DNA from: Terriglobia bacterium
Lineage (GTDB): Bacteria; Acidobacteriota; Terriglobia; UBA7540
Direction: 5' to 3'
NCBI GenBank assembly: GCA_035712365.1
Contig: DASTAW010000003.1
Location: 62,001 to 126,000 of the forward strand
Length of the DNA stretch: 64,000 nucleotides
Positions 54,914 through 56,953 of this stretch are shown piece by piece (the stretch's first letter is position 1; every line of letters starts with the position of its first letter). The translations under genes were made by a program, and so were the position numbers. Under the pieces are notes generated by a model. That model was given only the letters and a program-made list of their open reading frames with translations, was not told where the DNA came from and searched no databases.

Positions 54914-54921
54914 GACCCGTG
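54914..54921. repeat. Target-site duplication, left copy
   Basis: GACCCGTG directly outside the left end of the transposon; an identical copy flanks the right end (56946-56953). Confidence 0.92.
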
Positions 54922-54939
54922 GGTACTGGTTCAGTTTGA
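54922..54939. repeat. Left terminal inverted repeat (18 bp)
   Basis: GGTACTGGTTCAGTTTGA, exact inverse of 56928-56945. It contains the last codons and TGA stop of the transposase gene. Confidence 0.92.
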
Positions 54940-55767
54940 TTTATCACGATCAGCCAGCCCTACAATTTCTTGTATTGACCAAACATAGTCAGATATTCCA
55001 GCTTGCATTGCCGGAGTGCATCTAAGCGTTTCATGGATACGGGCAAAATTGTAGTACATGAAGTACAGCGACACTGCGTACATCATATTTTCTACTTTCT
55101 TGGAGTGAGCGTTGGTTAGTCGGGTGAAGCGTCTCATGCTCATTCGCATAGTGAGATTCTGCCTTTCGACGTAGCTGGTAGACACGCACTTCATATCGGG
55201 GGTGCCTTGGATAATTTTGCTTTCACATCCAATACACTCCGCTGGACTGTAGCGAACTTCTTCCTGACTTGCCCCGTAAAGTTTCACTAGTTGTGCATAA
55301 TCAATATCGGACCCAAAAGCCCCCTCAACCGCGTCCAGGTAAGGTCGCAGGCCGTCCGTTGTGAGTTGTACACGGTTCGCCAAACGACTCTTTAGATCGT
55401 CCATAAAGATAATCGCCGTTTTCAAGTCACGGTTGCCGAGCATGGAAGAGATTACCAACTTCGTGTCGGCATCAATAGCAACCCAAGTCCAGACATCGCC
55501 GTACCCAAACTGTCCCTTGAACTTTTTAGGGACATTTTTCTGTTTTGCATAGCAGAATTGCCATATCTCATCGCACTGGATGTGACGGCAATGCAAATTC
55601 TTAATGGCTCGGTCTTGGAAGCTATCTGCCGCTTGGCCGACATTTGCCAGTAGCTTCAAGATTGTATTTTTGGCAACTCCAGTCATGCGCGAAGTGGAGT
55701 TTATAGAGCACCCTTCCACTAGTGCGGTGATGACGCTGGTCTGTTTTTCTCTATTCAGTTTGTTCAT
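54931..55767 (-). CDS. IS1-family transposase
   Basis: This 278-residue DDE transposase has a helix-turn-helix start (SINSTSRMTGVAKNTILKLL) and the IS1-type core. Core motifs are CRHIQCDEIWQFCYAKQK (first Asp-containing motif), QLTTDGLRPYLDAVEGAFG (second Asp) and STSYVERQNLTMRMSMRR (Glu), then MYYNFARIHETLR. It is intact. Its stop codon lies inside the left terminal repeat. It should catalyse movement of the 2.0 kb element. It is divergent from the small basic ORF. Confidence 0.93.
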   Translation of the reverse strand: MNKLNREKQTSVITALVEGCSINSTSRMTGVAKNTILKLLANVGQAADSFQDRAIKNLHCRHIQCDEIWQFCYAKQKNVPKKFKGQFGYGDVWTWVAIDADTKLVISSMLGNRDLKTAIIFMDDLKSRLANRVQLTTDGLRPYLDAVEGAFGSDIDYAQLVKLYGASQEEVRYSPAECIGCESKIIQGTPDMKCVSTSYVERQNLTMRMSMRRFTRLTNAHSKKVENMMYAVSLYFMYYNFARIHETLRCTPAMQAGISDYVWSIQEIVGLADRDKSN

Positions 55768-55805
55768 CGAATATGCTACAATGATGTCGTTTAGAAAGCC
55801 CCGCG

Positions 55806-55958
55806 ATGATTAAACCCAAGTACCGTAAAAGTCTCGACTCCGCTCAACTTGCCCACGCTGCTGTAGAGCGAGCTATTGGGTCGAAGCTGAAGCCCCCTAG
55901 GCCGAGTCAGCCACAAGCAGCAAAGATGTCATCCAAAAAACACCCGAAAGGGAAGTAA
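55806..55958 (+). CDS. 50-residue basic passenger protein
   Basis: ATG 55806 to TAA 55958. The product starts IKPKYRKSLDSAQLAHAAVE and ends in a Lys-rich tail (KMSSKKHPKGK); 12 of 50 residues are Lys or Arg. No family is recognised. It starts 39 bp from the divergent transposase start and ends 3 bp from the convergent Ntn-hydrolase gene, filling the space between them. A DNA- or protein-binding accessory role is possible, not shown. Confidence 0.5.
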   Translation: MIKPKYRKSLDSAQLAHAAVERAIGSKLKPPRPSQPQAAKMSSKKHPKGK

Positions 55959-55961
55959 ATC

Positions 55962-56783
55962 CTACCAAGTCCATTTGCTGAGATTCTTTTTCAGCCATTT
56001 AGCTTGAGAATTCTTCTTTCTAACATCCCTTATGCCTTTGATTGAATCATCCATCGCCGAGATAAACATTTCTAACGCTTCGTCATCCCTGTCAGCAATA
56101 GCGTTGAGTATGCTTGGCAAGTATAAGAACATATCAGATAGCGGACTCTTTCCAGGCTGGCTAGATGGATAGATATGCTCCCAGTAGTCGCCTTGATCTG
56201 ACACGCCAACTACTTGCGGGGCACCCCCGCAGTACATGGCATGATCTCCGGTGGAAATAATAAGATGCATGGCAATTGCGGGCATGGTGTAAATGGACGT
56301 AATACCATCTTGAAATAGAATACTCGCTATCGCCTTTATTGCTGCTTCTCCCGACTCCATCCCACTACACACAGGATTCGTGTTCGCGGGTGAAATGCGT
56401 CCTGTTTCTTTCACCCTGTACAATTTTGCAGGTTCTCCAACCTGCATGGCTAAGAGAATGTCCACCGTAGGCGGGTTCGGATCGCCGGATTTGCGTAGAG
56501 GTATTATATCCCGCTTAAATATGTCTCTCACAGCAGCACCGACTACAGCCTTCACCCGCTCTGCCCGTACCCTTTTTTCTCCGATTTTCTCAATAATTTC
56601 CGCCGCAATAGAACTGAGATAGCTCGTATCCCCAGATCCCGCAATATACGCCCGACCATTAAGAGGGTGTACAGGAAATATCTTCGGTCCAGGTGACTTT
56701 GCTTGATACTGTCCCCCTGAGTATTCACTATCAGTGCATAGCACAACACCGTCCACGCACCTAAAACCAGCCGCAATAGTCAT
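55962..56783 (-). CDS. Proteasome beta-subunit-like Ntn hydrolase (transposon passenger)
   Basis: ATG 56783, with AGGGGG eight bases upstream, gives 273 residues beginning M-TIAAGFRCVDGVVLCTDSE. Removal of Met would expose Thr1. Counting from it, Asp17 falls in CTDSEYSGG and Lys33 in GPKIFPV, the positions of the Thr1/Asp17/Lys33 triad of 20S proteasome beta subunits. The 273 residues exceed a usual beta subunit by about 60, added at the C-terminus (MFLYLPSILNAIADRDDEAL, basic end). An upstream ATG-region start would add a 33-residue leader. No alpha subunit or ATPase partner is present. Predicted self-assembling protease; activity is inference. Confidence 0.8.
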   Translation of the reverse strand: MTIAAGFRCVDGVVLCTDSEYSGGQYQAKSPGPKIFPVHPLNGRAYIAGSGDTSYLSSIAAEIIEKIGEKRVRAERVKAVVGAAVRDIFKRDIIPLRKSGDPNPPTVDILLAMQVGEPAKLYRVKETGRISPANTNPVCSGMESGEAAIKAIASILFQDGITSIYTMPAIAMHLIISTGDHAMYCGGAPQVVGVSDQGDYWEHIYPSSQPGKSPLSDMFLYLPSILNAIADRDDEALEMFISAMDDSIKGIRDVRKKNSQAKWLKKNLSKWTW

Positions 56784-56927
56784 AGCCTTTGCCCCCTGTG
56801 GCCTTGGTTCTCTTTTTGTCTGCTGCTTACTAAATTGCGGGCTGGAGTATATCAAATTCTGCTTTGGGTTAGAGGATGTCATGCGACACCCCCAAGACCG
56901 GAAAAATATGGAAACCTGTATTCCCAG

Positions 56928-56945
56928 TCAAACTGAACCAGTACC
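56928..56945. repeat. Right terminal inverted repeat (18 bp)
   Basis: TCAAACTGAACCAGTACC, exact inverse of the left end. Identity stops after 18 bases. Confidence 0.92.
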
Positions 56946-56953
56946 GACCCGTG
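56946..56953. repeat. Target-site duplication, right copy
   Basis: GACCCGTG, identical to 54914-54921. Confidence 0.92.

Follow-up and report, generated by a model that had tools for sequence, protein, structure and literature searches.

Results

An IS1-like element carries a proteasome-like hydrolase gene

The window, that is, the whole 64,000-nucleotide stretch of DNA analyzed here, comes from a Terriglobia bacterium, an acidobacterium of soil. It contains an IS1-like insertion sequence of 2,024 bp (54922..56945) with two long genes, a transposase and a proteasome-like Ntn hydrolase. The element ends in perfect 18-bp terminal inverted repeats, GGTACTGGTTCAGTTTGA, on the left at 54922..54939 (plus strand) and on the right at 56928..56945 (read on the minus strand). 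An exact 8-bp target-site duplication, GACCCGTG, flanks them at 54914..54921 and 56946..56953. The element lies between a Radical-SAM methylthiotransferase-like gene and an MscS-like channel gene. In two congeners, G001 and G002, this neighbourhood is contiguous, the ~2.2 kb of the window being replaced by ~67 bp that do not match it. This empty site indicates that the insertion took place in this lineage and that the hydrolase was already aboard. Repeats, duplication and empty site rule out an orphan gene of the host and bear out the sequence-only reading, which had placed the gene on a mobile element. As a non-transposition gene between inverted repeats with a target duplication, it is a passenger gene in the usual IS sense, and we are nearly certain that it is an IS-borne Ntn hydrolase.

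The transposase (278 aa; 54931..55767, minus strand) was assigned from profile matches and RefSeq homologues. It reaches 59 bits (E 5e-16) against a cut-off of 100 on the NCBIfam model transpos_IS1 and 23.8 bits against 24.1 on Pfam DDE_Tnp_IS1, and its 54-58% identical homologues are named "IS1 family transposase" in RefSeq. Two smaller candidates were rejected. A promoter-like TTGACT-17-TATTTT (56903..56931, minus strand), which begins at the right inverted repeat, does not score above shuffled sequences. A basic ORF of 50 codons (55806..55958, plus strand), located between transposase and hydrolase, resembles the small KGG...ARW protein described below no better than shuffles do. No RNA genes were found in the window.

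The hydrolase gene occupies 55962..56783 on the minus strand, stop codon included, and encodes 273 aa from a Met-Thr start; the protein begins MTIAAGFRCVDGVVLCTDSEYSGGQYQAKSPGPKIF... Counted from the Thr after Met, Thr1 (codon 56778-56780), Asp17 (56730-56732) and Lys33 (56682-56684), all on the minus strand, have exactly the spacing claimed for them from the sequence. This holds for the window protein and not as a rule of its family, since the Lys lies 1-3 residues earlier, or later, in many relatives. A chance triad is ruled out by family conservation and fold. The protein matches PF00227 (Pfam Proteasome) with 26.2 bits (E 7e-6; gathering score 22.4) and, weakly, the NCBIfam 20S beta model TIGR03634 (21.1 bits against a cut-off of 224). 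It matches neither the curated 20S beta model TIGR03690 nor, at E up to 1, the HslV model TIGR03692, on which the host's own HslV, a separate gene, scores 272 bits. A whole-genome search with PF00227 returned HslV, the window gene and one sub-threshold match only, and the element holds no AAA+ gene and no HslU. The earlier statements that no alpha subunit or ATPase partner lies nearby are thus upheld. The gene is single-copy in its own genome at that level of similarity, and no defence model of PADLOC matches it.

The Met-Thr start and the upstream stretch

An alternative in-frame ATG (56882) lies 33 codons upstream of the Met-Thr start and would extend the ORF to 306 aa. The intervening stretch (56784..56882, minus strand) is therefore a candidate leader or propeptide, and the long ORF could be the true product, its propeptide being removed autocatalytically as in 20S beta subunits. 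In several members, in-frame starts do exist upstream, with possible ribosome-binding sites, and a PRRLP-like stretch recurs. Against this, ATG, GTG or TTG stands directly before the Thr in every member where that codon could be placed, with GTG in many, although the start search in the newer members was itself set to require a Thr directly behind a start codon. For the first member set any Val or Leu codon was admitted before Thr, and all proved to be start codons, with four GTG and one TTG in the members that have Val or Leu. Such constancy supports the Met-Thr start that had been assumed for exposing Thr1. Moreover, five members (L005, L027, L028, L031 and L033) have no upstream start at all, and in the pair L010/L012 the equivalent of 56784..56882 has a dN/dS of ~1.1, so that coding of the extension is unsupported. 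We retain the propeptide as a rival and consider it very improbable.

In many distant members, for example L008, L015, L029, L036 and L092, an in-frame PRRLP- or RPLPQVYPW-like stretch precedes the Met-Thr start. From the sequences, this recurrence may reflect conservation of either the DNA or a peptide.

The predicted fold is that of an Ntn hydrolase

A structure model of the window hydrolase, built from 18 family members, has a mean pLDDT of 81.5 and a pTM of 0.74 and shows the Ntn alpha-beta-beta-alpha fold, so that in silico the protein passes the fold check set by the sequence-only reading. Foldseek places Anbu and 20S beta subunits at the top (E ~1e-12 to 1e-10, probability 1.00), the best being Anbu 5nyg and 5nyj at E ~1e-12. 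VIA-align comparisons with 20S beta and Anbu give Z scores of 21-22, with 2.3 A over 178 residues for the 20S beta subunit 6z46 (Z 22) and 4.0 A over 214 residues for Anbu 5nyw (Z 22). Phage HslV-like proteins match the fold as well, and BPH, which may match further down, is not among the 50 fold matches listed. The C-terminal ~40 residues are modelled as a long helix, 234-272, at low confidence (pLDDT 44-72).

The hydrolase belongs to a large and very diverse family

The sequence-only reading had called the protein an orphan. This label is too weak, since the family around it is large, highly diverse and borne on IS1-like and IS1595 elements. A single-sequence search of genome contigs found no relatives and an alignment-based search found seven; iterative searching brought in relatives of 12-27% identity. 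PF00227 is matched by 11 of 18 relatives, and PHROG 1040 (phage HslV-like) by 7 of 18 members. Matches at E 1e-4 occur in 88 of 399 genomes, the weakest being HslV-like, and the distribution is patchy. No protein match was found in the plasmid collection for three members tried or in the phage collection for one, and a plasmid or phage gene was rejected on these grounds. One complete element (L015, 7833-10907) lies on the putatively viral IMG/VR contig UViG_3300031718_000003.

Among 50 aligned members, Asp17 is kept in all and Lys33 in 47, with Arg in the other three. Position 1 is Thr throughout, apart from Ser in L136, and the central Gly140 (mature chain) is invariant. At the position of 20S Ser169, an equivalence by sequence pattern only, most members have Cys in a CGG motif. 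Three closely related hydrolases without IS context (L161, L164 and L166) have Arg for Lys33 (YYEERI); judging by this residue they are possibly inactive or altered in chemistry. The hydrolases of L010 and L012, the one pair compared in this way, have a dN/dS of 0.094, which indicates purifying selection.

Two families of insertion sequences carry the hydrolase

Inverted repeats and an exact 8-bp duplication surround the hydrolase in 25 elements, which were found mostly by hydrolase homology. Nine were delimited earlier (the window element, L006, L007, L008, L015, L027, L035, L036 and L042, the last found via its transposase). The remaining 16 come from 34 further loci, for which homology to the hydrolase was the sole selection criterion. 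The same test was positive for none of 150 random genes of the window, and for one of the 34 loci when the right flank was reversed. Overall, ~35 of 56 homology-found loci have IS evidence once those with a single IS end or a neighbouring transposase are included. Neither an IS end nor a transposase lies near the other ~21, so some copies persist, or are decaying, away from elements.

The transposases are of two families. IS1-like elements have ends GGTAGTGG..., and IS1595 elements have ends GATTATTTACTTGAC... or GGAAGTATGTACTTTACGCAA, with a transposase that matches PF12762 and scores 193 bits on NCBIfam IS1595 (cut-off 75). L143, L150, L157 and L159 are minimal elements of two genes and ~2-2.3 kb, and the orientation of the hydrolase relative to the transposase varies among elements. 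L165 (5528-6938, 1.4 kb) has no transposase: between its IS1595-type ends, which are flanked by an 8-bp duplication, lie the hydrolase and a small ORF, an arrangement that resembles a mobile insertion cassette. The genome of the window holds a second IS1-like element, L042 (4077-6213, G000:C7; duplication AGGTCGTG). It carries a KGG...ARW protein and a very divergent hydrolase, which has no Pfam match and a predicted Ntn-hydrolase fold.

A stable slot with variable sequence

Loci were also sampled by transposase and not by hydrolase. In the IS1595 clade around L036, a hydrolase occupies the same slot beside the transposase in 9 of the 10 closest copies, two of these nine (L175 and L179) by weak scores; more distant IS1595 copies mostly have none. 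Only 2 of 29 IS1-like loci have a hydrolase within 1.5 kb. Within the L036 clade the transposases are 54-84% identical and the hydrolases 12-24%, and the two identities are uncorrelated (Mantel r -0.31). L170 and L171, for example, have transposases that are 84% identical and hydrolases that are 17% identical.

Two pairs are mosaics, L008/L015 and L010/L012, with ends and transposase alike and a divergent hydrolase core; in L010/L012 similarity returns at the 3' end of the hydrolase (93%). L010 and L012 are two copies in one genome, with transposases 95% identical and hydrolases only 76%, and synonymous divergence in the hydrolase is five times that in the transposase. Such a mosaic on a stable backbone is a mark of cargo replacement or of fast divergence. 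The divergence could also come from old, loosely constrained copies and not from an arms race.

Other cargo of the same elements

Other delimited elements on the IS1-like backbone carry a DNA methyltransferase (L073), a BRO-N/DinD-like gene (L087) or a HTH and DUF4258 pair (L091), and in L074 a P63C protein lies between inverted repeats without a duplication. Genes that travel with the hydrolase include a type IIG restriction enzyme (L007), a TIR-domain gene (L029) and, identified by eye, a HicAB-like pair (L162). On alphaproteobacterial plasmids, similar transposases have as neighbours RES/Xre toxin-antitoxin genes and a gene annotated 'histone H1'. An AAA ATPase (L076), a DUF3800 gene (L082), an Mrr gene (L088) and an SDH protease (L081) also sit beside transposases, and we left them out as evidence of cargo because no inverted repeats were found around them. 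The gene in L081 (2039-2947) encodes a ClpP-like serine protease of SDH type and adjoins the same IS1-like transposase, with no element ends found.

Near one end of IS1-like elements, irrespective of their remaining cargo, we repeatedly found a small basic protein with the C-terminal motif KGG...R..IA..AA..RW (L006, L007, L035, L042, L087, L090, L092, L149, L152 and L156). Neither of two copies scanned has a Pfam match, and one plasmid copy is annotated as histone H1. This protein could be a DNA-binding accessory of transposition.

Discussion

Judged from its sequence, the hydrolase is mobile, under selection (in the one pair compared), catalytically intact and without a partner gene. The sequence-only reading is thus supported in part, namely in fold, triad, Met-Thr start, missing partners and mobile element, whereas its self-assembled ring is hypothetical. 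We propose that it is a stand-alone Thr Ntn hydrolase and a hypervariable IS cargo, probably acting on changing targets of host or phage, and as a whole we rate this explanation evenly balanced. Counting against it are the Arg at position 33 of three members, the Ser1 of L136, the lack of a PADLOC model and the loci with no trace of an IS. Methionine aminopeptidase would remove the initiator Met and expose Thr1, which would serve as the nucleophile together with Asp17 and Lys33. The enzyme would act alone or as a homo-oligomer, needing no dedicated ATPase or alpha ring, and would cleave, or otherwise modify, a protein or peptide; its activity is probably proteolysis. The target would most likely lie outside the element and change fast, such as host defence or stress proteins, phage proteins or rival elements. 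By acting on it the hydrolase would benefit or stabilize the element, like the alternative cargo of restriction-modification, toxin-antitoxin, BRO and TIR genes.

The role against an external, variable target is the least secure part of this proposal, and we put it slightly below an even chance. That the fold and active site stay the same while nearly all else changes suggests an enzyme aimed at fast-changing targets and not at transposition. In having such targets it would resemble the restriction and toxin-antitoxin genes that sister elements carry. A more specific version is that both IS families reserve a slot for a hypervariable effector of proteasome fold, a stand-alone Thr protease whose recognition surface is reshuffled by recombination against changing phage or host defence proteins. 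It would be a previously undescribed, protease-based mobile cargo for defence or counter-defence. We regard this version as speculative and rather doubtful.

Two other roles are unlikely, to a similar degree. The first is regulation of transposition, in which the hydrolase would degrade or remodel the transposase or transpososome and so control copy number. The adjacency of the two genes in 9 of 10 elements of one IS1595 clade and the existence of two-gene minimal elements are what such a regulator would lead one to expect. However, a protease that acts only on the transposase should co-diverge with it, and in that same clade it does not, which favours an external and changing target. IS1-like elements with the same transposase mostly bear other cargo instead of the hydrolase, and the relative orientation of the genes varies. 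The second is an uncapped, generic peptidase that benefits the host, its role in stress or peptide turnover being like the one proposed for BPH and Anbu, and that was mobilized by chance. The closeness of the fold to Anbu and 20S beta, the missing AAA+ partner and the copies outside IS elements agree with it. However, the host already has HslV, the family is patchily distributed among genomes, and its extreme divergence is ill-suited to a single house-keeping substrate. A non-proteolytic reaction of the proteasome fold, such as connectase-like ligation or amidase/acylase chemistry, is less probable still: connectase shows that the fold can be a monomeric ligase (PMC8665760), and the Cys found in most members at the 20S Ser169 position could fit, but no connectase-type two-helix insertion between S3 and S4 is evident in our model.

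For proteasome-like proteins beyond 20S, HslV, Anbu, BPH and connectase, there was previously no telling genomic context (PMC8665760). The tie to insertion sequences provides one and explains their patchy spread, and the small two-gene elements make their role testable. If the hydrolases are indeed effectors against changing targets, the proteasome fold would have been co-opted for conflict among mobile elements, hosts and phages.

Of the known systems, Anbu is similar in predicted fold, in the Thr1 that follows Met and in having no AAA+ partner, and the long C-terminal helix, predicted at low confidence, may resemble its H5. However, the window hydrolase is only 16-18% identical to Anbu, and its element holds only transposase and hydrolase, whereas the Anbu operon consists of transglutaminase, ATP-grasp and Alpha-E genes (PMC5666114). 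With 20S beta subunits it shares the fold, the triad and PF00227, but it is ~70 residues longer and far below the TIGR03634 cut-off, and its genome has no alpha subunit. HslV, BPH and the phage HslV-like proteins of PHROG 1040 are alike in fold and Met-Thr start; HslV differs in that its model is not matched, no HslU lies in the element and the C-terminus of the window hydrolase is longer.

Fuchs, Alva and Lupas (2021) described 22 proteasome-like families, distant and bacterial (PMC8665760). Some of these, PPH and AAH, are spread by phages; no suggestive genomic context was reported, no association with transposons is named, and the word transposase is absent (PMC8665760). The window protein resembles them as a distant proteasome-like protein of bacteria and differs in its link to a transposon, but since the families were compared by description, its family may be one of them. 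Passenger-carrying insertion sequences, namely IS1595, other families and transposase-free cassettes, share the inverted repeats, the 8-bp duplication and the combination of a transposase with unrelated cargo. No earlier report of a proteasome-like IS cargo was found in the openly accessible literature searched. The novelty thus lies in the joining of two known kinds, passenger-carrying insertion sequences and proteasome-like hydrolases, of which the protein family itself may already have been described.
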